Shown here in pieces: positions 2,341 through 64,000 of a stretch of 64,000 nucleotides of DNA. The notes under the pieces were generated by a model, which was not told the DNA's origin, did no database searches, and saw only the letters and a list, made by a program, of their open reading frames with translations. The position numbers and the translations under genes were made by a program. How positions within the stretch are numbered: position 1 is the first letter of the stretch; each line of letters opens with the position of its first letter. Source of the DNA: Glycine soja (taxonomy: Eukaryota > Streptophyta > Magnoliopsida > Fabales > Fabaceae); NCBI RefSeq assembly GCF_004193775.1, contig NC_041021.1, forward strand, positions 22,784,632-22,848,631, in the 5' to 3' direction.

Positions 2341-3690
2341 AAATTTCCGCATGCAAATGACTTGTTGTTCCCGACGGAACAAAAGGTGTAGAAGACGATG
2401 TCAGTCTCTGCATGCTATCAAGCGTTCTGTCTTACAGATAGCAAAAGAATGTTTATACGGATAACCACTCGGGTATTTCCGCCCGTCAGCGTGACTCAAA
2501 AGTCAGTATGACAGATCTTGTGAGCGCGGAAGATGATGTAAATCTCCGCATGTCATCGGGCCCGCCGCCTCTGGATGACAAAGGGTGCAGAATGACCAAA
2601 TTTTGTCTCTGCGTGCCATCGGACACGACTGTGTCTGAATGGCAAAGGGGTGCGGAATGACCAAATTTTGTCTCCGCGTGTCATCGGGCCCGCCGCCTCT
2701 GGATGACAAAAGGGTGCAGAATGACCAAATTTTGTCTCTGCGCGCCATCGGACACGACTGTGTCTGAATGGCAAAGGGGTGCGGAATGACCAAATTTTGT
2801 CTCCGCATGTCATCGGGCCCGCTGCCTCTGGATGACAAAGGTGCAGAATGACCAAATTTTGTCTCTGCGTGCCATCGGACACGACTGTGTCTGAATGGCA
2901 AAGGGGTGCGGAATGACCAAATTTTGTCTCCGCATGTCATCGAGTCCACCGCCTCTGGATGACAAAGGGTGCAGAATGACCAAATTTTGTCTCTGCGTGC
3001 CATCGGACACGACTGTGTCTGAATGGCAAAGGGGTGCAGAATGACCAAATTTTGTCTCCGCATGTCATCGGGCCCGCCGCCTCTGGATGACAAAGGGTGC
3101 AGAATGACCAAATTTTGTCTCTGCGTACCATCGGACACGACTCTGTCTGAATGGCAAAGGGGTGCGGAATGACCAAATTTTGTCTCCGCATGTCATCGGG
3201 CCCGCCGCCTCTGGGTGACAAAGGGTGCAGAATGACCAAATTTTGTCTCTGCGTGCCATCGGACACGACTATGTCTGAATGGCAAAGGGGTGCGGAATGA
3301 CCAAACTTTGTCTCCGTATGTCACATGACCTCAGGGTCAGTATGACAGATTTTGTGGGGCGGCCGACAAAAGCAATGCTGTTGCTCCTACGTATCCTCCA
3401 ATGAGGAACTCAGACCTACGTAGTTCTAGATAACTTCTGAGACTTGAAAAAGTCTCCACCGGAAGATGTTGACATCTCCGGAAAGGGTGCGAATGACCAC
3501 ACTGGCCTTTTCTCATCAATCACACTTGGGGTCACTGAATGACGAGGTGCAGATAACCGTAAGGTGTCTCCGCGGGCTACCAGCTCTCGGGTCATGGTAA
3601 CAAAAAGCGGTGCAGTCGACAAAAGCGAGGCTCTTACTCCTACATATCCTCCAATGAGGAACTCAGACCTACGTAGTTCTGGATAACTTG
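2341..3690 (-). repeat. 128-bp tandem hairpin array, 3' region of element I
   Basis: Six near-identical units start at about 2554, 2682, 2811, 2938, 3066 and 3194, flanked by degenerate units back to about 2370 and forward to 3600. Each unit has two related halves of about 64 bp, and each half forms two hairpins. In the first unit these are TGTCATC 2551-2557 with GATGACA 2574-2580; GCAGA 2587-2591 with TCTGC 2608-2612; TGCCAT 2614-2619 with ATGGCA 2639-2644; GCGGA 2652-2656 with TCCGC 2673-2677. Two copies of the two-stem module follow (3361-3427, 3615-3680). The period is not a multiple of 3, so the long minus-strand open frames here are repeat artefacts. Confidence 0.85.
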
Positions 3691-9303: not shown

Positions 9304-11421
9304 CTAGATTTTAAACTCCTGGCACATTTCCCCCATCATCTTGTTATTCAGGTTGGTGCCGTTGTCCGTGATAATCTTCCTTGACAAACCATATCGGCAG
9401 ATGATCTCTTTCTTAATGAACCTGACTACCACACCCCTTGTGACGTTGGTATAGGAAGCTGCCTCGACCCACTTGGTAAAATAATCTATCGCTACGAGGA
9501 TGAAGCGATGACCATTCGAGGCCTTGGGCTCAATGGCCCCGATGACATCTATTCCCCACATGGAGAAAGGCCAAGGGGCGGACATGACATTCAAAGGAAG
9601 TGGTGGGGCATTGACATTATCTGCGAATGCTTGACATTTGTGGCATTTCCTTACATGGACACAACAATCACTTTCCATGGTAAGCCAGTAATAACCTGCT
9701 CTTAGGATCTTCCTGGCCATAGCATGCCCGTTGGCGTGCGTTCCAAATGAGCCCTCATGGACTTCCTCGATCATGTGATTTGCCTCTCTGGCATCCACAC
9801 ACCGCAGGAGTGTCATGTCGTGATTTCTCTTATACAGTATGCTTCCGCTCATGAAGAAATCGGCTGCCAACCTTCTCAATGTCCTCTTATCATTGTCGGC
9901 AATCTCTGGCGGGTATTCTTTGCTTACGACATATCGCTTGATGTCGAAATACCAAGGCTTTCCGTCTCGTTCCTCTTCTACTTGGCAACAATGCGCGGGT
10001 TTGCCACGACACCAAAATTCAATGTAGGGTAGATCCCCGTGTGGCGTTAGCTGGAACATAGACGCCAAAGTGGCAAGTGCATCTGCCATTTGATTTTCCT
10101 CGCGGGGAACATGATGGAAGGAGATCTCATCGAAGGTTTTAGCCAATTCCTTGATATAGGCTTTGTAGGGTATCAGCTTGGGATCTCTAGTTTCCCATTC
10201 CCCTCTCAGCTGATGGATTACCAATGCCGAGTCGCCGTACACCTTGAGTAGTTTGACATTGGAGTCAATCGCTGCCTGGACGGCTAGGGCACATGCTTCA
10301 TATTCGGCCATGTTGTTGGTGCAGTCGAATCCTAGCCTGGCTGTGAAGGGTACACATTGATTGTCCGGAGAGACCAATACTGCCCCAATGCCATGGCCTA
10401 GAATGTTTGACGCTCCGTCAAACCATACGGTCCATTTGTCCCGATCTTCGTCCAATTTTTCCTCAAACAAGCCCATGATGTCCTCATCCGGGAATTCAGG
10501 ATGCATGGGCTGATAGTCGTTAAGAGGTTGTTGAGCCAAATAATCTGCTAAGGCGCTTCCTTTTATCGCCTTTTGGGTGACGTAGACTATATCAAACTCG
10601 GATAGCAGGACTTGCCACCGGGCGATTCGTCCCGTGAGTGCTGGCTTTTCAAAGATATACTTAACCGGGTCCATCTTGGATATCAACCAGGTAGTATGGC
10701 TCAGCATGTACTGCCTTAGGCGATGGGATGCCCATACTAAAGCACAACACGTTCTTTCGAGCAAGGAGTAATTCATCTCACAGGTCGTGAACTTCTTACT
10801 TAGGTAGTAAACAACGCGCTCTTTCTTCCCGGATTCGTCATGTTGCCCCAGCATACACCCCATTGACTCGTCCAAGATTGTCATGTACAAAATGAGAGGC
10901 CTTCCAGGTACTGGTGGCATAAGCACGGGAGGATTTATAAGGCACTTCTTGATCCTTCCAAAAGCTTCTTGGCAATCCTCATTCCAGCGATCAGTTTGGT
11001 TTTTGCGTAAGAGCTTGAACAACGGCTCACAAATGGCGGTGAGCTGCGATATGAATCTGGCAATATAATTCAAGCGTCCCAGGAAGCCCCGGACTTGTCT
11101 CTCAGTTCGGGGTTCTGGCATCTCAAGGATAGCCTTCACCTTTTCGAGGTCTACCTCTATCCCTTTCTGGCTTACAATGAAACCAAGTAATTTCCCTGAT
11201 TTAACCCCAAAGGTACACTTGGCGGGCTTCAACCTTAATTGATATTTCTTAAGCCTTTCGAACAACTTCCGCAGGTTGACAAGGTGTTCTTCCTCGGATT
11301 TAGATTTAGCAATTATGTCGTCCACGTAGACCTCGATTTCTTGATGCATCATATCATGGAACAAAGCTACCATGGCCCATTGATAAGTTGCCCCGGCATT
11401 CTTGAGTCCAAAGGACATCAC
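9304..11421 (-). pseudogene. pol: pol: RT C-terminal half, two RNase H domains, integrase N-terminal half
   Basis: An open minus-strand stretch of 705 codons. Residues 1-150 are the rest of RT, with catalytic YVDD at about residues 32-35. Residues 175-300 are the first RNase H (YYLSKKF, NYSLLERTCCALVWA). Residues 330-465 are a second, archaeal-type RNase H with its acidic residues in place (WFDGASN, NMAEYEA, VYGDSALV, MADALATLAS); this dual RNase H marks the Tat/Ogre group. From about residue 555 comes integrase: zinc-binding H and C residues (CHKCQ), then catalytic aspartates in WGIDVIGAI and IITDNGTN. It is bounded by a TAG upstream (near 11440) and a TAG downstream (near 9302); both are one transition away from the codons usual at those places. 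Confidence 0.93.
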
Positions 11422-11439
11422 CTTGTAACAGAACGTCCC

Positions 11440-14400
11440 CTATAGGGTGACGAAAGTAGTCTTTTCCATATCCTCGGGCGCCATCTTTATCTGATTGTAA
11501 CCGGAGAAACCGTCCATGAAGGAAAATAAAGCGAAATTGGCCGTGTTATCTACGAGGATATCGATGTGTGGTAAAGGAAAATTGTCCTTGGGACTGGCCC
11601 GATTCAGATCCCGATAATCCACACACATTCGTACTTTCCCATCTTTCTTAGGGACTGGTACAATGTTGGCAACCCATTCTGGATACCAAGCGACGGCCAG
11701 AAACCCAGCGTCAAATTTCTTTTTCACTTCTTCTTTTATCTTCAAGGATGTTTCGGGCTTCATCCTTCTCAGTTTCTGCTTTACCGGGGAACACTCGGGA
11801 CTTAGAGGTAATCGGTGTTGTACAATGTCAGAACTCAAACCGGGCATATCTTGGTATGACCAAGCAAAGATGTCTTGGTAGTTTTTTAGCAGGATTAGTA
11901 ATTCTTCACGGATAGGTGCGGTAATACCTGTGCCTATCTTCACTTCCCTTTTTCCACTGCCAATTCCTAAGTCTACTAGTTCTGTTTCCTCTTGATGAGG
12001 CCCCATTTCTTGGTCCTCATGGGCGACCATCCTTTCTAATTCTGGGGGAAGTCCCACATCCTCGTTCCCTTCATCTTCCGTTTGATTCGTTTCTTGCTCG
12101 AAGTTGATAAGTGGGTCCCAGGTATTAGTACCTTCGGGGGACTCATCATCGGATATTATGCTCGTTGCGTAAATGCCTTGGCGTTCCTCCACTCGCCAAT
12201 TTCCCAGCTGGAAATCAGGAGGGCATGGTCGTACCAAATCCAATGTACTTGGAACATCATCTTCGCATATCGTGACCACTTGACCTTTGTCTCCCAGACC
12301 CACGCTTATAAAGCTTCTACTTATGTGGCAGGGCGGGCTTCCTTCACTTTCTTGTCTCCAACGCGAGCTTTGACCACCGCTCTTCCTTCCCGCGATGCTT
12401 CTCTTCATATCCGCCTGAGTGGGCTTATAGCCTAAACCATACTTCCCACGATTTCCTTTGGCATTTATCAGGCTAGTTATGCAGCCGTTGTCTTTGCCTA
12501 AACCCATTCCGGGTTCGTAACCGTTCCCCAACATAACTCGGGCCATCATTACTGCTGCATCGGACAGGCAAGGCTGCCCAGAGAAGGAGTCCACGGAGGA
12601 AATGTTGACCACCTCAAAAGACTGGAAAGCAGTTTCTAACGATTCTTCTGCGGCTTCTACATAAGGCATAGAGGATGGGCAGCTCACCAAGATGTCTTCC
12701 TCGCCTGACACGATGACCAAACGCCCCTCCACTACGAATTTCAACTTTTGGTGGAGTGTAGAGGGCACAACTCCCACTGAGTGGATCCACGGGCGCCCCA
12801 ACAGACAGCTGTAGGGGGGGTTAATATCCATTATTTGGAAGGTGACTTGACAGGTGTGAGGGCCTATTTGTACTGGGAGATCGATCTCTCCACTAACCTC
12901 TCGGCGAGTGCCGTCGAAGGCACGAACCACCATTGAACTCGGCTTTAAGTGGGAAGCATTAAATGGTAATTTTTCCAAAGTGCTCTTAGGCATCACGTTT
13001 AAACTGGAGCCATTATCGATGAGCACTTTGGCTACGACATGGTCCATACACTTGACTGATACGTGCAAAGCCTTATTATGCCCTCTCCCCTCGGCGGGGA
13101 TTTCTTCTTCGGCGAAGGCAAGATAGTTGTTGGCAGTGATATTGTTGACCAGCCCTCCAAAACCTTCTACCGAGATATCTTGGGCCACATGGGCCTCGTT
13201 CAGAACTTTTACTAGCAGAGCCCGATGAGGCTCGGAGCTCATAAGTAACTCCAACAGCAAGACCCTGGCCGGAGTTTTGTTGAGCTGTTCGATAACCTTG
13301 AATTCGCTCTGTTGAATTATACGGAGGAACTCGCTGGCTTCCTCTAGCGACACCTCCTTTTTACCATCCTTCTTTTCCGAAAGGCCTTTTGCCGGAATAT
13401 CTTTATTCGAAGCGTGGGGTGCTTCGCCATCTTGTTCCTCCACCACTTTTCCTTTTCCTTTGACGTCCGCGGGTTGGACTGATAGGTCCGGAGGCGCGAA
13501 CACACGGCCACTACGGGTCACACCACTCAGTCCCGTGATATTTGTTACTTTAGCTGACAACGAGTTGACGTCGGTGGCTTCTTCTTCCTTCTCCCTCGGA
13601 GGTGTATATCTCCATGGTACTGCGTGGCTACTTTGGTATGGGAAAGGAACAGGTTTGGCTGCTAAGGGGTGTTCGGGCTTTTGCGAAGCTGTGCTTTTAG
13701 TGAAGTATATCACCAAGGGTTTGGGCTTCGCAACACTGCTCCCAACCGTGGACTGCATGCATATATGCTGCTCTTCTTTTCCTTCACTGCCGACTTCCAG
13801 TCGACCTTGATCTATCATCCGCTGTAACAATTCCTCTACTCCCAAACACGTCTCCATGTCATGCAGCTCGCCGAAATGCAGCAAACAGGAATCCTCCTTA
13901 CACCCACTATGGGGAATCACACCTCCCTTTTGTAGGGCCTCAAAGATAAACCTCCTAGGGGTTGCCACATCCCTTAAAGGTTTAGACTCGCGCGGTCTAT
14001 CAGACTCAATGGCGTTAATTGCTCCCCCTCCATGATTGGCGAGCGGGTTGGTTCGCACATTGGGCCGATCCTCTTGGAAGGTCAGCCATCCAGCATCCAT
14101 CAAATGTTGGACCTTGTATTTAAGGGCCAAGCATTTTTCAACGGAATATCCCAGGACACCCCCATGGTACTTGCAAGTTGCATTAGGGTCATACCACTTT
14201 GGGAAAGGGGGTTGGAGGACCCTTCCGGGAGTTACCACGGCCAAATGATTGGCGATGAGGGATGGCAAGAGGTCTTCGTACGTCATTGGGAGTGGGGTGA
14301 ATTCTTGAAATGGCCTCGGAGGGAAGTTCCTTGTCGTGTTGGAATTACCGGCCGGGCGAGTCGTGTTCGGAGTTGGAACTTGGGGAGCTTCCCTCTGGGT

Positions 14401-14946
14401 GGGTGCCTTAGGCTGCACAGGTGCAGAACTAGAGGCGTTCCCGGTATGAGCCGAGAAGCTCGGGTGATGTTGCGCGTACTGATGGGTACCATGAGGTGTT
14501 TGCTGGGGTTTGACCCACGCGGGTGTTGAAGAGATGGCATGGGCATCTCCTTCCTTCCTTTTTGCCCCTGTTGCCCCGATTCTTTTGGCATTCGCACTCG
14601 TGGAGGAAACGTAATCAAACTTTCCTCTTTTCAATCCTACCTCGATTCTTTCCCCGGCGAATACTAGGTCCGCAAAGCTGGACGGCATATAACCTACTAG
14701 CTTCTCATAGTAGAACACTGGCAGAGTGTCTACCATCATGGTGATCATCTCTCTCTCAACCATGGGAGGAGCTACTTGTGCCGCCAAATCTCTCCACCGC
14801 TGCGCGTATTCTTTAAAGGTTTCACCCTCTTTCTTGAACATATTCTGCAGTTGAGTGCGGTCGGGAGCCATATCGGAATTGTACTGATATTGCCTTAGGA
14901 AGGCAGTAATCAGATCTTTCCAAGTACGGATACGGGAAGCTTCCAA
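11440..14946 (-). pseudogene. gag-pro-RT polyprotein, middle part, element I
   Basis: A minus-strand open frame of 1,168 codons. Residues 1-95 are the conserved Ty3-type gag core (TWKDLITAFLRQYQYNSDMA, EGETFKEYAQRWRDLA). Residues 255-290 hold an Ogre-type C/H motif (CKYHGGVLGYSVEKC). Aspartic protease lies at about residues 620-740, with a DNGS active site near residue 644 and LLGRPWIH. A G-patch-like segment at about 807-845 (GYEPGMGLGKDNG) follows. RT begins near residue 1050 (VKQKLRRMKPE, VRMCVDYRDLNRASPKDNFP, FSFMDGFSGYNQI). The frame ends at a TAG near 11440, inside RT. The gag join to the upstream part is broken by a short deletion at 14946-14950. Complete members would make one gag-pol precursor that assembles cytoplasmic particles. 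Confidence 0.92.
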
Positions 14947-14947
14947 A

Positions 14948-15880
14948 TTAGTGTATTAATAGCTTCTCATCCTTAGAGTGTGCGCCCATCTTGCGGCAGT
15001 ACATCTTGAGATGGTTTTTGGGACAAGTCGTCCCTTTATACTTGTCGAAGTCTGGCACTTTGAACTTCGGGGGGATAACAACATCGGGTACTAAGCAAAG
15101 ATCCGTCATGTCTGTGAATGTATAGTCCCCAAATCCTTCCACGGCCCTCAATCTTTCCTCAAGGAGATCGAGCTTCCTCCTTTCTTCAGTTGCCGGGGAC
15201 GGTCCTTCCGTGGACAAAACTATTGGTTGTGTTGCGATGTTGGGCTGAGGCAACGTGCTGGGTGCCAGCTCTTCAGGGATCGGCGGATAGAACTCGACAT
15301 CCCTTCGAGCATAGTCTTGAGGGTCTTTGTGGACATCTTCGGGTTGTTGAGGAGGCTCTCTTTCAAGGACGGGAGAAGCAATATGGCCCGCATCGTCTTG
15401 CAAGACGGGTGGTGAGTAGTTGGGTGGCAATCCATAAGGGTAAGCCGCTCGGTTGTATCCCAGGTGAGGGCTGCCATCGTGTCCCAGTGTGTCCCTTCCC
15501 CGTCCTACTATGTTTGAGGGAGGATGGTGCGCAGTTGCCAAGAGAGTCGGGTCTGCTTCGGCAGCCGAACTGACAGCGGCAGCGGTGGCCGCGTTCTTCT
15601 CCATGAGCTGCCTCATGCCTAACATGGCCTCCATCATGGAGGCCATTTGTTCTTTCAGAGCCGACATGTCGGCTTTCATCTGTTCCTGTGTCTCCTCTTG
15701 ATCACCCATCGTTCTAGATTTGGATCTGGTGCGATAGGGATGCCTTGTGGCGCGTTTAGTTATGGTGTTTTTCCCTAAAAAACCAAACGTGAGGAGTGGG
15801 TAAAGAAAGAAAGAATGCATGCTAGAGATAAAATGCAGGAGTGATTTTTGATTCGCACAAGCTTTTTGGAGTAGAAACAT
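14948..15880 (-). pseudogene. gag N-terminal part, element I
   Basis: Minus-strand open frame. The likely start is ATG 15709 (MGDQEETQEQMKADMSAL), because the 56 codons before it are hydrophobic and unlike gag. A methionine-rich coiled coil follows (about 25 residues), then a Pro-rich region (YPYGLPPNYSPPV) and the conserved ERLRAVEG, TDLCLVPDVVIPPKFKVPDF, YKGTTCPKNHLKMYCRKM and SKDEKLLIH. It stops at a TAA at 14948-14950. Relatives continue here into the gag core, and a few codons appear deleted at the junction with the next open frame. Confidence 0.85.
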
Positions 15881-15950
15881 GGGACCAACTCATTTTATTT
15901 CAAAAAAAAGGGTTGTATCTAGCCAAGGTCTGAGAGACCATACAAGTTTC

Positions 15951-26720: not shown

Positions 26721-27239
26721 ACAACTTCAAAGCATGCAACAACTACAACTACATAATAAAGACTGAGAAAAACTTAAACGCAACACAACAAGAAAATATG
26801 TTAGATTATTCATTCTAATTTCAAGGAATTGTCCAGTTTCTGCTCCATGTCGGCCCAATTGAGGTCATTAACTTGAGTAGATGATAATGAACTATGAACA
26901 TCAACTTTAAGTTCCATACATATTACACTTGGCATATTCACAGATGTATGAAATGTAGAAGCAAGCTTCATGATGTTGAATCAAGATTGATTCAAGTTGT
27001 TTTGATGATAACAAAGATGATGACAAAAAGCCCAAGAGAATGATTTCAAGATTGAGTCAAGAACAATTCAAGAATCAAGAGAAATTGGATTTCAAGGTTC
27101 AAGAAAAGATGAATTCAATTTTCAAAAGAAGAAATCAAGAAGACTTCACAAGGGAAGTATTGAAAAGATTTTTCAAAAAACAAACATAGAACAATTTTGT
27201 TTTTCAAAAGAGTTTTCTCAAAATTTTCTAAGTTACCAG

Positions 27240-27510
27240 AGTTTTTACTCTCTGGTAATCGATTTCCAGATTCCTGTAATCGATTACCAGTGGCAAAGTT
27301 TGTTTTTCAAAAGCTTTTAATTGAGTTTACAATGTTACAATTTATTTTAAAATGGTGTAATCGATTACAAGGATTTGGTAATCGATTACCAGTGACAAGT
27401 TTTGAACAAAAATCAAAAGAAGTAACTCTTCCAATGGTTTTCGGATTTTTCTAAAGGTTATAACTCTTCCAGTGGTTTTCTTGACCAGACTTGAAGAGTC
27501 TATAAAAGCA
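27240..27510 (+). promoter_or_regulatory. Copia-type LTR promoter: palindrome repeats and TATA box
   Basis: At least four copies or near-copies of GTAATCGATTAC(CAG) at about 27255, 27276, 27356 and 27379, followed about 110 bases later by TCTATAAAAG (near 27498). The same layout on the minus strand occurs at 50630-51170 and 53960-54300. Confidence 0.65.
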
Positions 27511-27712
27511 AGACCTTGATTTGCATTTGAACAACACTTACAACCTTTACAAACAACTTTTCCACATATTCTTTTACAACCCTTGAATCTCTTTGAACAT
27601 TTTCTTGAACTTCTTCTTCTTCTTCCTTTGCAAAAGCTTTCTAAAGTTTTCTGGTTTTCCAAACCTTGAAAATAGAAGTGTGCTATAACTTTTATTCTCT
27701 TCTCCCTTTGTC

Positions 27713-28138
27713 AAAAAGAATTTGCCAAGGACTAACCGCCTGAATTCTTTTTGTGTCTCTCTTCTCCCTTTTCCAAAAGAATAAAGGACTAACCGCCTGA
27801 ATTCTTTTGTGTCTCCCTTCTCCCTTGTCAAAGAATTCAAAACAACACAGTCTGAGAATTCTTTTGATTCTTCCCTTTCCCTTATACAAAAGATTTCAAA
27901 GGACTAACCACTTGAGATATCTTTTGTATCCCCTTCACAAAGTTTCAAGGGACTAACTGCCTGAGAACTTTGTCTTAGCACATTGGAGGGTACATCCTTT
28001 GTGGTACAAGTAGAGGGTACATCTACTTGGGTTGTTGTAACTGAGAACAAGAGAGGGTACATCTCTTGTGGATCAGTTCTAGTGGAGGGTACATCTACTA
28101 GGTTGTTCGAAGAGAACAAGGGAGGGTACATCCCTTGT
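27713..28138 (+). repeat. Two tandem hairpin arrays in the LTR leader
   Basis: Array 1: a shared loop core (GGACTAACCGCCTGA) with stems AAAAAGAATT/AATTCTTTTT (27713-27752), AAAAGAAT/ATTCTTTT (27775-27808), AAAGAATTC/GAATTCTTT (27830-27864), ACAAAAGAT/ATCTTTTGT (27886-27927) and ACAAAGTT/AACTTTGT (27937-27973). Array 2: a constant loop GGGTACA with stems CAAGTAGA/TCTACTTG (28007-28029), ACAAGAGA/TCTCTTGT (28047-28069), CTAGTGGA/TCTACTAG (28079-28101) and ACAAGGGA/TCCCTTGT (28116-28138). The third loop of array 1 has lost the core. Confidence 0.85.
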
Positions 28139-28726
28139 GGATCTTTGCTTGTAAAGGATTTTACAAGGTTGAAAAGAAATCTCAAGGACCGCAGGTCGCT
28201 TAGGGACTGGATGTAGGGACGGGTTGTTGCCGAACCAGTATAAATTCTTGTGTTTGTCTTCTTCTTCCCTACACTCTTTATTTTCCACTGTGCACTTTAA
28301 TTATCGCTTTTACTTTTGGTTACGTTTATATTTCTGTTCTTTACTTTCTTAACATTATAGTAAAAGCCTAAGAAGGGTAGATTTTTAATTAGTAAAGGTT
28401 CGTTAATAATTAATTCAACCCCCACTTCTTAATTATTCTGAGGCCACTTGATCCAACATGAAGCATGCACAAAACACCTTCTTCGTCAATAATTTGAACT
28501 GCCCTATATTGAATTTCACCATTGAATTCATATACAGGACAACGATACCAAAGTGCAGTAATTATATGCATAACATCATTATCTGTAATTGATGACTGTA
28601 TTGCGGTGATTATGTTTGGCAGCGTCATTGTAGGATTCAAGAGTAACGATTTTGTCTTGTCACCTTTGAAAACTACCTTTGCACTTGAACTTATATAAAC
28701 GTACGCACAAAGAGGCTTTCACCTTA

Positions 28727-49757: not shown

Positions 49758-51366
49758 TGTTGGATTAAGTGGCCTCGGAATAATTAAGAAGGAGGGGTTG
49801 AATTAATTATTAATGTGTCTTGACTAATTAAAAAATTTGTCCTTCTTAATGTTACTAGATTTTACTAGGCTTTTACTACTAAGTTAAGAAAGTAAAGAAC
49901 AGAAACAATAACTTAACCAAAAGTAAAAGCGGCAATTAAACGTACACAGTGGAAATTAAAGAGTGTAGGGAAAAAGAAGACAAACACAAGATTTATACTG
50001 GTTCGACAACAACCAGTGCCTACATCCAGTCCCCAAGCAACCAACGGTTCTTGAGATTTCTTTCAACCTTGTAAAATCCTTTACAAGCCAAAGATCCACA
50101 AGGGATGTACCCTCCCTTGTTCTCTTTGAACAACCAAGTAGATGTATCCTCCACTTGAACTGATCCACAAGAGATGTACCCTCTCTTGTTCTCAGTATAA
50201 CAACCCAAGTAGATGTACCCTCTACTTGTACCACAAAGGATGTACCCTCCAATGTATTAAGACAAAGAATTCTCAGGCGGTTAGTCCCTTGAATCTTTGT
50301 AAGGGGGATACAAAAGATATCTCATGCAGTTAGTCCTTTGAAATCTTTCGTATAAAGGGAAATGGAAAAAGATATCTCAGGCAGTTAGTCCTTTGAAATC
50401 TTTTGTAAGAAACAAAAGATATCTCAGGCGGTTATTCCTTTGAAATATTTTGTCAGGAGGGAGAAGGAAAGAAGAAGAAGAATAGCACAAGTTTTTGGTC
50501 AATGAAATTTTCTTGAAAGAGAAAATATTGAACAAAAACTTTTAGAAAGATGAAGAGAAATGAATAAAAGAAATTTGTTATGCATGAAAAGGAATTAGTC
50601 TCATAAATTCGTGCCATGGTCACATATTTATAATCATTTGATGACTCAAGTTAAAGTTTGTGACTCTTGGAAATTTCTTTAAAACTAGTCACTTTTTAAA
50701 AGTTGTGACTCTTTTGAAAACTAGTCACTTTAAAAGTTGTGACTCTTTTGAAAACTAGTCACTTAAAGGTTGTGACTTTTGAAAAACTCTTCAGAAACAA
50801 GTCAATTTAAAAATTGTGACTTTTAGTAATTTATTTTTTGAAATCAGTCACTGGTAATCGATTATCATCATAGTGTAATCGATTACACATCAACAGATGT
50901 GACTCTTCATGTTTAAATTTGGAAATCAAAACGTTTAGAAACACTGGTAATCGATTACAAGTATTGTGTAATCGATTACACAAGTTTGAAATGATTTGAA
51001 AAAGTTTTATCACAAGTTGTGACTCTTGAAATTTGAAATCTAACGTTTTAAAACATTGGTAATCGATTACATGATTATGGTAATCGATTACAGCTTTGTA
51101 AATTAGTTTTGAAAAGAATGCTGGCTACTGGTAATCGATTACTGCCTTCTAGTAATTGATTACCAGAGAGTAAAACTCTTTGGTAAAAGATTTTTCTTTT
51201 TGAAAAATTCTTGTGCTATTCAATGTTTTGAAAAACTCTTTTAATACTTATCTTGATTGAGTCTTCTCTTGATTCGTGAATCTCGAGTCTTGATTCTTTA
51301 CTTGAATCTTGAATCTTGATCTTGATTATTCTTGAATCTTGAATCTTGATCTTCATTCTTGAAACT
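49758..51366 (-). repeat. Copia-type LTR, minus orientation, truncated at its U3 end
   Basis: Starts TGTTGGATTAAG and is collinear with 53020-54591. Minus-strand TATA (TTATAAATATG) lies near 50625-50636, with GTAATCGATTAC palindromes at 50850-51170. Hairpin arrays of the leader are at 50092-50450. It does not reach the expected TTCTACA end but passes into the inverted copy at 51401. It therefore looks like a broken LTR joined to another. Confidence 0.75.
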
Positions 51367-52340
51367 TGTTTGACTCTTGATTCTTTGGCATCATCAAAGG
51401 GGTTTCAAGAATCAAGATCAAGATTCAAGAATAATCAAGATCAAGATTCAAGTAAAGAATCAAGACTCAAGATTCATGAATCAAGAGAAGACTCAATCAA
51501 GATAAGTATTAAAAGAGTTTTTCAAAACATTGAATAGCACAAGAATTTTTCAAAAAGAAAAATCTTTTACCAGAGAGTTTTACTCTCTAGTAATCGATTA
51601 CCAGAAGGCAGTAATCAATTACTAGTAGCCATCATTCTTTTCAAAACTGATTTACAAAGTTGTAATCGGTTACTATAATCATGTAATCGATTACCAATGT
51701 TTTAAAACGTTATATTTCAAATTTCAAGAGTCACAACTTGTGATAAAACTTTTTCAAATCTTCAAACTTGTGTAATCGATTACACAATACTTGTAATCGA
51801 TTACCAGTGTTTCTAAACGTTTTGATTTTCAAATTTAAACATGAAGAGTCACATCTGTTGATGTGTAATCAATTACACTATGATGGTACTCGATTACCAA
51901 TGACTGATTTTGAAAAATAAATTACCAAAAGTCATAATTCTTAAAGTGACTTGTTTCTGAAGAGTTTTTCAAAAGTCACAACCTTTAAGTGACTAGTTTT
52001 CAAAAGAGTCACAACTTTTAAAGTGACTAGTTTTCAAAAGAGTCACAACTTTTAAAGTGACTAGTTTTCAAAAGAGTCACAACTTTTAAAGTGACTAGTT
52101 TTCAAAAGAGTCATAACTTTTAAAAAGTGACTAGTTTTAAAGAAATTGCCAAGAGTCACAAACTTTAACTTGAGTCATCAAATGATTATAAATATGTGAC
52201 CATGACACGAATTTAAGAGACTAATTCCTTTTCATGCATAACGGATTTCTTTCATTCATTTATCTTCATCTTTCATAGAGTTTTTGTTCAATACTTTCTC
52301 TTCCAAGAAAAGTTCATTGTTCAAAAACTTGTGCTACTCC
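50490..52340. repeat. Fold-back of two LTRs, about 0.88 kb per arm
   Basis: The left arm (50490-51366) and right arm (51401-52340) are reverse complements with few mismatches, separated by about 35 bases (51367-51400). The right arm has one extra copy of a 35-bp AGTGACTAGTTTTCAAAAG repeat (51985-52130). If transcribed through, it would form a very long hairpin RNA. Confidence 0.85.
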
Positions 52341-52343
52341 TCA

Positions 52344-52721
52344 ATGCAAGAAGAAGAAGAAGAAGAAGAAGAAGAATATGATGATGAAGAGGAATTCTCA
52401 CTCTTTGTGAAGAAGTTTCATAAATTCCTCAAAAATAGAAGAATGGAGAGAAGCCATAACTTCAACAATGGGAAGAGATCTCAAGAAGTTTCTCCAACAC
52501 TTAAATGCTATAAGTGTAATCAACCCGGTCACATAAAGGCAAACTTCCCCTCAAATGAGTCATGGCCCGAGAAGAATGAGAAGAAAAGCTATAAAGAAAG
52601 AAGATCCAAGAAGGCGTATATTTCTTGGGATGACAATGACTCATCCGATGGTTCGGAGAAGGAGATCAACCTTCTATCCAAGGACTATGAAAATGATGAG
52701 AACATCTCTCAAGAAGTTTAA
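52344..52721 (+). pseudogene. Copia-type gag fragment with zinc knuckle
   Basis: Plus-strand frame beginning with a glutamate run (GAA/AAG microsatellite, 52345-52376), then EFSLFVKKFHKFLKNRR, a zinc-knuckle region CYKCNQPGHIKANF and an acidic SDGSEKEINLL, ending with a TAA at 52719-52721. The knuckle has phenylalanine where the final cysteine should be. The gag N-terminus, protease, integrase and RT are absent. It follows the plus-oriented LTR arm directly; U5 and the PBS are missing. Confidence 0.75.
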
Positions 52722-53019: not shown

Positions 53020-54591
53020 TGTTGGATCAAGTGGCCTCGAAATAATTAAGAAGAGGGGGTTGAATTAATTATTAATGTGCCTTGACTAATTAAAAATTTA
53101 TCCTTCTTAATGTTACTAGATTTAATTAGGCTTTTACTACAAAGTTAAGAAAATAAAGAATAGAAAAAGAAACTTAACCAAAAGTAAAAGCGATAATAAA
53201 AGTGCACAGCGGAAATTAAAGAGTGTAGGGAAGAAGAAGACAAACACAAGAGTTTTATACTGGTTTGGCAACAACCCGTGCCTACATCCAGTCCCCAAGC
53301 GACCTGCGGTCCTTGAGATTTCTTTTCAACCTTGTAAAAACCTTTACAAGCAGAGATCCACAAGGGATGTACCCTCCCTTGTTCTCTTTGAACAACCAAG
53401 TGGATGTACCATCCACTTGAGCTGATCCACAAGAGATGTACCATCTCTTGTTCTCGATTACAACAACCCAAGTAGATGTACCCTCTACTTGTACCACAAA
53501 GGATGTACCCTCCAATGTGTTAAGACAAAGTTCTCAGGCGGTTAGTCCTTTGAATTCTTTTGTTTAAGGGAAAGGGAAGAATCAAAAGAATTCTCAAACT
53601 GTGTCATTTTGAATTCTTTAAAAGGAAGAAGGGAGACACAAAAGAATTTAGGCAGTTAGTCCTTTGTTCTTTTGGAAAAAAGGAGAAGAGAGACACAAAA
53701 AGAATTCAGGCGGTTAGTCCTTGGCGAATTCTTTTTGGCAAAGGGAGAAGAGAATGAAAAGGATGAATAGCACACTTTTGTTTTTTGTGAAACAAACAAA
53801 GTTTGGAAACCAAAAAACTTAGAAAGCTTTTGGCAAAGGAGGAAGAAGAAGAAGTTCAAGAAGATGTTCAAAGAGATTCAAAGGTTGTAAAAGAATATAT
53901 GAAAAAGTTGTGTGTAAAAGTTGTAATTATTGTTATAGAAATGCAAGTCAAGGTCTTACTTTTATAGACTCTTCATGTCTGGTCAAGAAAACCATTAGAA
54001 GAGTTATAACCTTTAGAAAAACCTGAAAGCCATTGGAAAAGTTATATCTCTTGACTTTAATTCAAAACTTGTCACTGGTAATCGATTACACAAAGCTTTT
54101 TATGAAAGGATATGACTTTTCACAATTGATTTTGAATTTCAACGTTTAGATACACTGGTAATCGATTACCAATATCTTGTAATCGATTACACCATTTTGA
54201 AATCAGTTGGAACGTTGTAAATTCAGTTGAAAGCTTTTGAAATCAAACTTTGCCACTAGTAATCAATTATAGGAAACTGGTAATTGATTACCAGAGAGTA
54301 AAAACTTTGGTAACTTAGAAAATTTTGAGAAAAACTCTTTTGAAAAACAAAACTGTGCTATGTTTGTTTTTTGAAAAATCTTTTCAATACTTCCCTTGTG
54401 AAGTCTTCTTGATTTCTTCTCTTGAATCTTGAATTCATCTTCTCTTGCATCTTGAAATCAAACTTCTCTTGACTCTTTAAACTTGTTGACTCAATCTTGA
54501 AATCATTCTCTTGGACTTTTTGTCATCATCTTTGTTATCATCAAAACTACTTGAATCAACTTGATTCATCATCATGAAGCTTGCTTCTACA
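53020..54591 (-). mobile_element. Solo copia-type LTR, minus orientation
   Basis: 1,572 bp, TGTTGGATCAAG...CTTCTACA, with perfect target duplication CTTGT (53015-53019 and 54592-54596). Minus-strand TATA (TCTATAAAAG) lies near 53961-53970. Palindromes GTAATCGATTAC are at 54075-54300. Hairpin arrays are at 53360-53491 and 53525-53740. Sister of 26954-28458. Confidence 0.88.
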
Positions 54592-58379: not shown

Positions 58380-60294
58380 ACACTAATTTCGTTTGAGCGG
58401 AACATCACTTGGCCGATGAATATCCCAACCAGCGGAACATGCTATCGAACTCGATCGTCCCCGCCTAGCAAAGAAGAATCTCGAGCGTCGTCAGGCTGGA
58501 ATGTCTCCGGATGATGAAAGTGAAAATCTGCAAAAATTTCAAAATAATCAGAATCAAACGACCAACATCATCCCGATACCATCGACCTCGTTCGCCCTGG
58601 TTGACAAAAGGTGCGAATAACGATAAGGTATTCCCTGCATGTCACCAGACTCGTTGTCTCTAGATGACAAAAGGTGCATAAGACGATGTTAGTCTCTGCG
58701 CGTCAACGGGCTCGTTTGCCCCTATTTGACTAAAGCTGCAGAAGACGACGTTAGTCTCTGCGTGTCAATGGGCTCGTTTGCCCCAGGTTGATGAAAGGTG
58801 CAGATAACCATACGGTACCCCCGCCTGCCACCTGACTTCCCGGGTCAGGGTAAATAGAAATCGTTTGTATAGATAGTCGCTTGGGTATCTCCACATGTCA
58901 TCGAACTCGCTATCTCTGGATGACAATAGGTGCAGAAGACAACGTTAGTCTCTGCGTGTCAATGGGCTCGCTTTCCTCTGCTTGACAAAAGGTGCAGAAG
59001 ACAATGTTAGTCTCTACGTGTCAACGGGCTCGTTTGCCTATGGTTGACAAAAGGTGTGGATAACCATAAGGTACCTCCGCCTGCCGCCTAACTTCACAGG
59101 TCAAGATTAACAGAAATCATTTGTAAGGATAACCACTTGGGTATCTTCGCCTGCCACCTGACTTCCCGGGTCAGGATTAACGAAAATTGTTCCTACGGAT
59201 AACCGCTTGGGTATCTCCGCCTGTCACCCGACTTCCCGGGTTAGGATTAACAGAAATCGTTTGTACGGATAACCGCTTTGGTATCTTCGCATGTCACCGG
59301 ACTCGCCGTCTCTAGATGACAAAAGGTGCAGAAGACGACGCTAGTCTCTGTGTGTCAATGGGCTCGCTTGCCCCTGGTTGACAAAAGATGTAGAAGATGA
59401 TGTTAGTCTTTGCGCATCAACGGGCTCGCTTGCCCCTAGTTTACGAAAGGTGCGGATAACCATACGGTACCCCCGCCTGCCACCTGACTTCCCGGGTTAG
59501 GGTTAACAGAAATTGTTTGTACGGATAACCACTTGTGTATCTCCGCATGTCACTAGACTCGCCGTCTCTGGATGACAAAAGGTGCAAAAGACGACGTTAG
59601 TCTCTGCATGTCATTGGGCTCGCTTGCCCCTGGTTGACAAAAGGTGCAGAAGACGATGTTAGTCTCTGCGCATCAATAGGCTCATTTGCCCCTGGTTGAC
59701 GAAAGGTGCGGATAACCCTACGGTACCCCCGCTTGCCACCTGACTTCCCAGGTTAGTGTTAATAGAAATCATTTGTACGGATAACCGCTTTGGGTATCTC
59801 CACATGTCACCCGACTTGCCGTCTCTGGATGGCAAAAGGTGCAGAAGACGACGTTAGTCTTTACGTGTCAATGGGCTTGCTTGCCTCTGGTTGACAAAAG
59901 GTGCAGAAGACGATGTTAGTCTCTGGGCGTCAACGGGCTCGTTTGCCCCTAGTTAACAAAAGGTGCAGATAATCATACAGTACCCCCGCCTGCTACCTGA
60001 CTTCCCAGGTCAGGGTTAATAGAATTCGTTTGTACGGATAACCGCTTAGGTATCTTCGCATGTCACCGGACTCGCCATCTCTGGATAACAAAAGGTGCAG
60101 AAGACAACGTTAGTCTCTGCGTGTCAACAGGCTCGCTTGCCCCTGGTTGACAAAAGGTGCAGAAGACAACGTTAGTCTCTGCATGCTACCGGACTTTGAG
60201 TCTGATGGATAGCAAATGAGTGTGTGCGGGTTACCGTATAGGGCGTCTCCGCGCGCCAACGGACTCACAGGTCGTGATAGCAAAAGGTGGGGCG
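58380..60294 (-). repeat. Diverged tandem hairpin array, 3' region of element IV
   Basis: About 30 monomers of 60-66 bp, related to the 64-bp half-units of element I but much more varied. Typical hairpins: TGTCAA 59353-59358 with TTGACA 59378-59383, inner GGGC with GCCC; GCAGA with TCTGC; GCGG with CCGC; CCTGAC with GTCAGG. Higher-order order: cGGATAACC-type units alternate with GAAGACGACGTTAGTC-type units. No coding frame. Confidence 0.85.
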
Positions 60295-62133: not shown

Positions 62134-63064
62134 CTAGTAACGCTTCTTTAACATCTGGAGTTGGACGCGTGATGACTTGTCGGTCACGGACCTAGTACTT
62201 TTGCTTACCTTTGGCTTTGGACTTGGTCGCTTACTGGTCGGCCACGGGTCGTAGGCAAAGCTCCGGCCTTTGTAGATGAGCTGAGGGGCTCTAGAGGTGG
62301 CAGCAGTGCGTCTATTGCCCGCTGCCGGCCATCCCCATGCTATTGTGGTGTCTTGCCCTACGCCTGCCTGGAGGCACAATACTTCTTGATGAAAGCTCGG
62401 TTAGTACGGGGTCTGATGACCATGCTGGGGGCGACGAGCACTCCGTAGAACTGACAGAGGCCCGTAATCAGAGCTGAAAACCCCAGGACCCTGTTGGACT
62501 TCTTCAGGTCTACTAGGTGTCTTGCAGGCGCAATCCCTGCAAACAATAGATGACATCAGAAATCAATTGAGCGATGTGCATACTTACTTATGTCATGATG
62601 GCGTGACCTTGCTGGGGGGACGGGCACCTGGTAGGACTGACAGAGGCCCATAACCAGAGCTAGAAACCCCAGGGCCCTGTTGGACTTCTCCGGGTCCACT
62701 GGGTGTCTTGTGGGCGTGATCCCTACAAATAGTAGATGGCATCAGAAATCAGTTGAACCATATGCATACTTACCTATGTCGGGATGGCATAGACCAACTG
62801 ATACTTTCGCAGGGGGAGTCGGCATTGCGGTCGCTAGGCAAAATGTTGCTAAGTAGCAACGTCATCCATATCTATGTAAGAGTGGTCATGTTGGTGTGCA
62901 TGATCCGCACTCGTCTCTTTGCAGCGGCACGGGTGAAATCTTGCCCCGGTATGAATAGTAGCTGCGCGATAGCCTCCTCCTCTAGTTATGCTCACACAGT
63001 TGGCCCTCCTCTAGGATCAGGGGGTGGCCCAGGAACTAATAAAAGGAAACTACTGGCCCCTTAA
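62134..63064 (-). pseudogene. Element IV ORF3 remnant with an internal tandem duplication
   Basis: Minus-strand similarity to 5393-6643: EEEAIAQLLFIPGQDFTRAA and RVRIMHTNMTTLT near 62990-62870, LLLSNILPSD near 62850, then ISWSMPS..., and SNRVLGFSALITGLCQFYGV near 62450. A stretch of about 170 bp (from about 62525) is duplicated at 62600-62760, with the copies carrying different changes. Many stops and frameshifts. The N-terminal third is missing, and its place is taken by the minisatellite to the right. Confidence 0.72.
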
Positions 63065-63119
63065 CCGGGAGCGCAAGTCTCGATTAAGCATTAAGGGCAG
63101 AGGACCTTAAATTCTCTTA

Positions 63120-64000
63120 AGGTGTGGATATGGAGTCCACTAAAAGTGAGGACGCGTAGCCCTCTAAAGGTGAGGGTGTGCAGCCCTCTGAAGTTGAGGA
63201 CGTGTCGCCCTTTGAAGGCAAGGGCGCGCAACCCTCTGAAGGCGAGGGTGTGCAGCCCTCTGAAGGCGAGGGCGTGCAGCCCTCCGAAGGTGAGGACGTG
63301 TAGTCCTCTGAAGGCGAAGGCGTGCAGCCCTTCGAAGGTGAGGACATGCAGTCCTCTGAAGGTAAGGATGTGCAGTCCTCTGAAGGCGAGGATGTGTAGT
63401 CCTCTGAAGGTGAGGGCGTGTAGCCCTCTGATGGAAAGGATGTGTAGTCCCCTGAAGGTGAGGACGTGTAGTCCTCCGATAGCGAGGGCGTGCAGCCCTC
63501 TAATGGCAAGGACGTGTCACCCTTTGAAGGCGAGGGGGTGCAGCCCTCTGAAGCTGAGGATGTGTAGTCCTCTAAAGACGAGGGCGTGCAGCCCTCTGAA
63601 GGCAACGGCATGTAACCCTCTAAAGACGAGGACGTGTAGCCCTATGAAGGCGAGGGCGTGCAGCCCTCTGAAGGTGAGGACGTGTATGCAGCCCTCTGAA
63701 GGTGAGGGCGTGTAGCCCTATGAAGGTGCGGGCGTGTAGCCCTATGAAGGTGAGGACGTGTAGCCCTCTGAAGGTGAGGACGTGTAGTCCTCTAAAGACG
63801 AGGGCGTGCAGCCCTCTGAAGGTGAGGGCATGTAGCCCTATGAAGGTGAGGGCACGTAGCCCTATGAAGGTGAGGACATGTAGCCCCTATAGGTGAGGAC
63901 GTGTAGCCCTCTGAAGGTGAAGGCATGTAGCCCTATAAAGGTGAGGACATGTAGTCCTCTAAAGGTGAGGGCGTGTAGCCCTTTGAAGGCGAGGACGTGT
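63120..64000. repeat. 24-bp minisatellite (about 36 units)
   Basis: Unit about GAAGGTGAGGACGTG(T/C)AGCCCTCT, period 24, running off the right edge. As 24 is a multiple of 3, frames stay open on both strands: minus reads octapeptides of the S-E-G-C-T-P-S-P type, plus reads C-S-P-L-K-V-R-T. The element's coding strand is minus, so only the former could belong to an ORF. Changes are mostly transitions. Confidence 0.85.

Follow-up and report, generated by a model that had tools for sequence, protein, structure and literature searches.

Several described systems resemble parts of the locus considered here. Like the array at this locus, the LTRs of Sireviruses (PMC2829016; for maize, PMC10760457 and PMC5311732) carry many short palindromes in the LTR of a plant retrotransposon of the copia lineage. 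The Sirevirus boxes lie upstream of the TATA box, have no spacers or short ones, and mostly share a CGG-CCG core; they have been read as DNA boxes or as sources of small RNAs (PMC2829016, PMC10760457, PMC5311732). In contrast, the array at this locus is found downstream of the TATA box and combines longer constant loops with variable, mostly A/T-rich stems.

Other parallels come from leader RNAs. In the copia-type element Ty1, hairpins of the 5' leader take part in packaging (TIPIRT; PMC5454406). They involve a 7-nt complementarity made up of the loop plus two apical stem pairs, and the type B hairpins described below are likewise complementary to a start-stop element. However, TIPIRT consists of two different hairpins and a pseudoknot and has been tested by compensatory mutation, whereas the repeat array is known here from sequence alone. 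The BARE leader (PMC3735527) belongs to a plant copia RNA that serves both translation and packaging, for which conserved dimerization and packaging signals are mentioned, but BARE has separate RNA pools, and repeated constant-loop hairpins are not mentioned in the passages considered. Outside BARE, fairly little is known about the packaged RNA of plant retrotransposons (PMC3735527). Finally, the AUG-UAA of Arabidopsis NIP5;1 (PMC11915504) is a minimal start-stop uORF in a plant leader, comparable to the AUG-UAG found here; ribosome stalling has been shown for NIP5;1, whereas AUG-UAG is present here as a motif alone. No description of leader hairpin arrays of this kind was found among the open-access papers searched, judged by the titles and abstract openings listed. 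The passages considered from PMC10578108 concern enod40 and have no bearing on the hairpin array.

The LTR family and its hairpin array

The window, meaning the whole 64,000-nt stretch of DNA that was analysed, contains three LTRs of one family (Table 1). LTR3 has the R-U5 part in common with the other two and differs from them in U3. LTR2 is regarded as a solo LTR because its borders carry a 5-bp duplication on both sides (ACAAG on the LTR2 sense strand). The TATA box lies at position 548 of 1505 in LTR1 and 626 of 1572 in LTR2, and its place near the middle of the LTR agrees with a Sirevirus feature; a scan of LTR3 for TATAAAA gave no match.

Table 1. Features of the three LTRs, with positions in the window
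Feature	Positions	Strand	Remarks
LTR1	26954..28458	+	1505 bp; no primer-binding site after LTR end
TATA box TATAAAA of LTR1	27501..27507	+	mid-LTR; hairpins downstream of it
Type A hairpin 1	27712..27753	+	
Type A hairpin 2	27775..27808	+	
Type A hairpin 3	27830..27864	+	decayed loop
Type A hairpin 4	27886..27927	+	folds as hairpin in energy fold; missed by the arm-swap script's pick of four
Type A hairpin 5	27937..27973	+	
Type B hairpin 0 (B0)	27979..28003	+	fixed TT/TT internal loop; absent from first-pass annotation
Type B hairpin 1 (B1)	28007..28029	+	
Type B hairpin 2 (B2)	28047..28069	+	
Type B hairpin 3 (B3)	28079..28101	+	second pair T-A or A-T among copies
Type B hairpin 4 (B4)	28116..28138	+	
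Hairpin C1	28148..28167	+	A-run and T-run lengths vary together among copies
Hairpin C2	28187..28197	+	outer pair G-C or A-T among copies
Hairpin C3 (GGTT/AACC)	28222..28236	+	
Start-stop element AUG-UAG	28211..28216	+	leader's only regular AUG
LTR3	49758 to about 51403	-	U3 different; B array same; A array different; 5' border approximate
LTR2	53020..54591	-	solo LTR; array as in LTR1, with A4 and A5 fused by deletion

Among 107 copies with an LTR end, 11 continue from it into AGTGGTATCA(G or A)AGC. No primer-binding site was found within 25 nt of the LTR end in the other 96, which are presumably 3' LTRs, solo LTRs or truncated copies. The junction CA-AGTGG-TATCAGAGC equals one variant of the Sirevirus LTR/internal junction, CA-A(T or G)TGG-TATCAGAGC, given in PMC2829016. 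That source also places the polyC-rich integrase signal of Sireviruses about 21 bp from the LTR end, and all three LTRs here have a run of four or five C about 35 nt from it. Downstream of its primer-binding site, one partly deleted copy has a single frame with Pol_BBD, gag_pre-integrs and rve. The internal region was examined to about 1.2 kb; in the Ty1/copia superfamily integrase is encoded upstream of reverse transcriptase, which in this copy would lie beyond that part. Sireviruses are also marked by multiple polypurine tracts ahead of the 3' LTR and, in some members, by an envelope-like gene. Because of the LTR/primer junction, the mid-LTR TATA box and the domains of this copy, the element can be called, on its sequence, a very high-copy, Sirevirus-like copia LTR retrotransposon.

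Palindromes centred on AATCGATT were also found in U3, in a scan that covered boxes of this center only. Many lie at 27257-27390, 50855-51161 and 54079-54289, often as GGTAATCGATTACC or TGTAATCGATTACA and often with asymmetric flanks, and they resemble the Tnd-1 Sirevirus box (PMC2829016).

The window holds further repeats. An inverted partial copy of LTR3's own U3 faces LTR3 (50477-52342; arms of 291-343 nt, 93-96% complementary). This copy has no hairpin leader and continues into a remnant in which a zinc-knuckle-like stretch of gag was recognised by eye near 52500. Long open frames on the minus strand at 9304-15889 resemble, again by eye, the gag-pol of another LTR element. An array with a period of 24 nt occupies 63028-63967, with a stop-to-stop frame of 206 codons at 63095-63715, and the repeats at 2453-3323 and 58637-60101 have periods of about 128 nt (6 register copies) and mostly 256 nt (5 register copies).

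The first-pass annotation of this DNA had described five type A hairpins with different complementary stems, one with a decayed loop, and their arms and loops are all present. The type B hairpins that it listed are present as well, but LTR1 has five of them rather than four. It had further reported that a related LTR repeats the array on the other strand, with both arms of one stem changed; those arms exist, but CTAGTGGA/TCTACTAG contains a G.T pair, as does its LTR3 counterpart. Because the same pair is G-C in 101 of 107 aligned copies (G-T in 3), these G.T pairs look like private C-to-T changes, and the change common to many copies is instead that of the next-to-outermost pair of B3, T-A versus A-T. 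Three smaller hairpins (C1-C3) sit 3' of the type B array, so that about a dozen short hairpins stand in a row. Since the array begins some 210 nt 3' of the TATA box at 27501, it presumably lies in the RNA leader. In each of the three LTRs it folds more stably than its dinucleotide shuffles do (200 shuffles; fold-energy z-scores of -2.63, -4.24 and -3.54).

The type A loop core GGACTAACCGCCTGA has 12,920 exact copies (6465 + 6455) in the 1,013,641,977-base assembly, where its reversed form has none (0 + 0), and a 28-mer of U5 has 1284 + 1253 exact copies genome-wide. Searches of the window with Rfam at gathering thresholds and with ARAGORN each returned 0 matches. The loop core also occurred in 22 stretches of viral contigs with one match each, which was taken as chance.

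Paired change between sister hairpins and between copies

Each type B arm pairs well with its own partner and poorly with those of its sisters. When 3' arms were exchanged among sisters, the orders that matched the Watson-Crick count of the true pairing numbered 1, 1 and 2 of 120 for the three LTRs; with G.U allowed, they numbered 2, 2 and 4. The three LTRs are related sequences, and these results are not independent. Of the 24 possible orders for the four type A hairpins picked out by the script in LTR1, the true one paired best. It was not the best in LTR2 (2 of 6), where two hairpins are fused by deletion, and in LTR3 one hairpin was found, too few for swapping. Own type A arms had a clear energy advantage over swapped arms at u5 only (-11.96 versus -9.78 kcal/mol; u4, -11.02 versus -10.30; u2, -8.68 versus -8.19). 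Across twelve B hairpins of the three LTRs (7 distinct), 100% of cells are paired versus 76.1% when shuffled, and the covariation score is 0.738 versus 0.273, with 0 of 500 shuffles reaching either value; slid partners are 33.9-55.1% paired. One inserted base pair shifts several B columns, so the changed-pair count overstates the number of events.

By inspection, the minimum history of the B hairpins comprises the gain or loss of a base pair between B1/B3 and B2/B4, an A-U to G-C change in two hairpins, and the B3 flip. B1 and B2 differ by one base pair inserted in both arms, and A-U to G-C changes in both arms separate B1 from B3 and B2 from B4. The A-run and T-run are of equal length in 274 of 310 A-type matches (3/3 in 81, 4/4 in 145, 5/5 in 48). 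Folding is kept, yet stem perfection is not, because the two T/T mismatches of B0 persist in 102 and 103 of 107 copies and the common u4 and u5 hairpins retain a mismatch or bulge.

Comparison between copies covers one genome, one family, and mostly one chromosome. The sample comprises 130 distinct segments, all of one family: chromosome 1 supplied 107, the window 3, and other chromosomes 20, the last selected for the GAACCGTTGG variant. Chromosome-1 segments were the first among the matches listed and were selected by exact match to the loop core or to a U5 motif; 52 chromosome-1 loci of the loop core were clustered by hand, and 40 of them were taken in. Four or five B loops are present in 93 of the first 110 segments, and in 1 there is no B loop. 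Pair changes were counted in 124 of the 130 segments, after 6 that kept <70% of the pairs were dropped. The U5 tree has 108 rows, and a hand-picked subset of 26 rows contains 3 from the window, 16 from chromosome 1, and 7 with the A-T variant.

Three bilateral changes separate copy lineages, namely a T-A/A-T flip, a G-C/A-T exchange, and a coordinated change in run length. In B3 (pair 1 of the count), 61 of 122 rows are changed on both sides, 60 of them to Watson-Crick pairs, and 1 on one side; intermediates are nearly absent, with this one-sided change and 1 non-pairing double among the 62 changed rows. The T-A form has 878 exact copies genome-wide. At the outer pair of C2, change on both sides is seen in 40 of 123 rows, always to a Watson-Crick pair, and change confined to the 3' side in 13, whereas 0 rows have changed on the 5' side only. 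This count includes 20 rows preselected for A-T at that pair; without them (n=108) the states are G-C 73, A-T 22, G-T 11 and other 2. The C1 runs with loop GGA are 3/4 in 45 copies and 4/5 in 41, and the ten next forms sum to 19. Since B3 and C1 states co-occur in more than one combination (T-A with 4/5 in 34, A-T with 3/4 in 34, T-A with 3/4 in 2), the two changes look like separate events. On supported branches of the U5 tree, B3 yields 1 independent pair and C2 yields 2, numbers too small to allow a sign test.

For the 26 copies, the RNAalifold covariation term is close to nil (+0.07 kcal/mol), with other pairs preferred over B1 and B2, and 97.6% of cells are paired versus 96.5% when shuffled (37.6-47.7% for slid partners). 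The first-pass annotation had made the structure claim depend on paired changes in excess of a shuffled null. In these 26 of the 130 segments the excess is clear in cells changed on both sides (16 versus 5.6, reached by 0 of 500 shuffles), but slight in the number of pairs with both-side change (3 versus 1.8, 69 of 500 reaching) and absent in further pair types (15 versus 16.8, 499 of 500 reaching). The covariation is real, yet it is thinner than the heading of that annotation suggests, and it is thin between copies. Similarly, the contrast between diverging arms and fixed loops holds between sister hairpins of one LTR but not between copies, where the mean minor-allele frequency in the B region is 0.040 for stems, 0.039 for loops and 0.059 for linkers.

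One-sided changes over all pairs number 222, with 110 on 5' arms and 112 on 3' arms; their states include 84 G.U cells (C2 G-T cells included) and 66 A.C cells. In dead copies these changes have no preference that betrays structure. Outside the two lineage pairs, 16 cells are changed on both sides versus 2.17 expected under independent arms, and 8 are Watson-Crick; 12 of the 16 fall in two poorly aligned rows, and 3 of the remaining 4 are Watson-Crick. Overall, change in dead copies is close to neutral decay, with neither clear selection nor clear chromosomal repair. Arms that change independently had been named as evidence against structure. They do so in dead copies, which is read here as decay and is no test of the active element.

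AUG content of the leader

AUG counts cover 80 of 110 copies, in which a TATA box is present and the leader measures 480-800 nt. Between TATA+30 and the U5 motif, these hold a mean of 1.21 ATG versus 10.56 CAT, with 10.37 expected from base composition; 29 have no ATG and one outlier has 20. The U3 of 26 locus stretches, some overlapping, has 15.62 ATG and 7.35 CAT. AUG avoidance is weaker when judged against dinucleotide shuffles, being marked for LTR1, whose 0 ATG are reached by 3 of 1000 shuffles (mean 5.08), but not for the decayed LTR2, whose 3 ATG are reached by 152 of 1000. The LTR3 leader, whose start is uncertain, has 4 ATG and 14 CAT.

ATGTAG sits in a highly conserved block of U5, and each of its bases is 97-100% conserved in the 130 segments, which were partly chosen by this block. 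A TATA box is present in the stretch examined for 8 of the 11 copies with a primer-binding site, and 7 of these 8 keep ATGTAG; any other ATG before the gag-like frame is absent from 2 of the 8, and the rest have one or two. Counted from the LTR end, ATG first occurs at +50 in 10 of the 11 copies and at +28 in the other. All 11 frames opened by it begin MAS or MAF; 7 continue as copia gag, read by eye, and 4 look like deletion derivatives. Because the leader is AUG-poor and has one start-stop AUG, and the next ATG opens a gag-like frame, the array looks to be placed in a leader of about 0.9-1.0 kb apparently made for scanning. The AUG-poor leader and its start-stop AUG-UAG are new here, beyond the observation made in the first pass.

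Probable selection on leader RNA and alternative readings

In this Sirevirus-like copia element, the arrays probably make up a structured 5' leader (R-U5) whose stems have been kept by selection on RNA folding. Transcription would start near the TATA box, and the transcript would fold into the hairpins. For as long as the element was active, selection would have kept the stems pairable, their letters mattering little, and the repeated loops would be the recognised part. By analogy with Ty1, the likeliest reader of the loops, though a tentative choice, is the element's own Gag, which might so mark the RNA for packaging. Several weak hairpins could mark the RNA jointly while scanning ribosomes could still melt each one, and the chromosomal copies would now mostly decay without repair.

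The first-pass annotation had offered either selection on a leader structure or template switching. Selection is favoured by the position of the array 3' of the TATA box, by the paired differences between sister hairpins, and by the scarcity of AUG, as expected if ribosomes scan this leader. Template-switch repair is the less likely of the two, given that stems with imperfections retain them. Such switching, during reverse transcription or DNA replication, would copy one arm into the other with no need for RNA selection. The mechanism has been described for RNA genes (PMC8794818) and yields paired changes in one step, in keeping with the scarcity of B3 intermediates and with the surplus of both-side cells outside the lineage pairs, most of them in the two poorly aligned rows. 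As the second-ranked reading it is nevertheless unlikely, since switching would tend to perfect the stems, and yet the B0 mismatches have been kept and bulged u5 and mismatched u4 forms are common. Inverted loops were found in 0 of 557 B-like hairpins, which is weak evidence since PMC8794818 also calls them extremely rare. Furthermore, one-sided changes far exceed doubles outside the lineage pairs, which argues for little chromosomal repair. The C2 G-T forms (11 of 108) point to a stepwise path, but the C of this pair lies in a CpG and may simply decay.

It is also improbable that the palindromes act as DNA, in the manner of cis-regulatory boxes, or as small-RNA sources. Palindrome-rich Sirevirus LTRs are siRNA hotspots in maize (PMC10760457, PMC5311732), and the U3 palindromes here are like the Tnd-1 motif (PMC2829016). 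However, the published boxes are upstream of the TATA box and these hairpins are downstream; DNA boxes bound by a protein should keep the letters of their arms and not pairing alone; and a yield of small RNAs would harm the element and leave the constant loops unexplained.

There is a slim chance that the type B hairpins, as antisense to the one regular AUG of the leader, form a repeat-counted switch between translation and packaging. All five carry UACAUCY, the complement of GGATGTA at 28209-28215, and could pair with the GGAUGUA of the downstream AUG-UAG; being interchangeable, they might control the frequency with which ribosomes encounter or bypass the start-stop element. Each of the three LTRs has 5 TACATC and 1 GATGTA in the leader, and 0.06 TACATCY are expected by shuffling, although the five occurrences amount to one repeated coincidence. 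If G.U is allowed, the start-stop region can also pair over 9 nt with parts of the leader that lie outside the B loops, which counts against this switch.

Ordinary tandem duplication of an old inverted repeat that has no present function, with the paired differences as a few historical accidents, is quite improbable: B1B2 and B3B4 do look by inspection like one duplicated dimer, 69-72 nt apart, and independent paired events are few, but at least three separate paired differences exist among B1-B4 (by inspection), run lengths are coordinated in the A and C1 hairpins, and the leader is AUG-poor.

With selection on leader folding as the preferred reading, the repeated loops and the different yet pairing stems seem to indicate an RNA structure that is maintained because it serves the element itself, and not the usual decay of repeats. 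The array, which exists in thousands of copies, offers a large natural data set for separating selection from template-switch repair in the evolution of stems. Little is known about the marks by which the RNAs of plant LTR retrotransposons are packaged, and this array is a concrete candidate for one.
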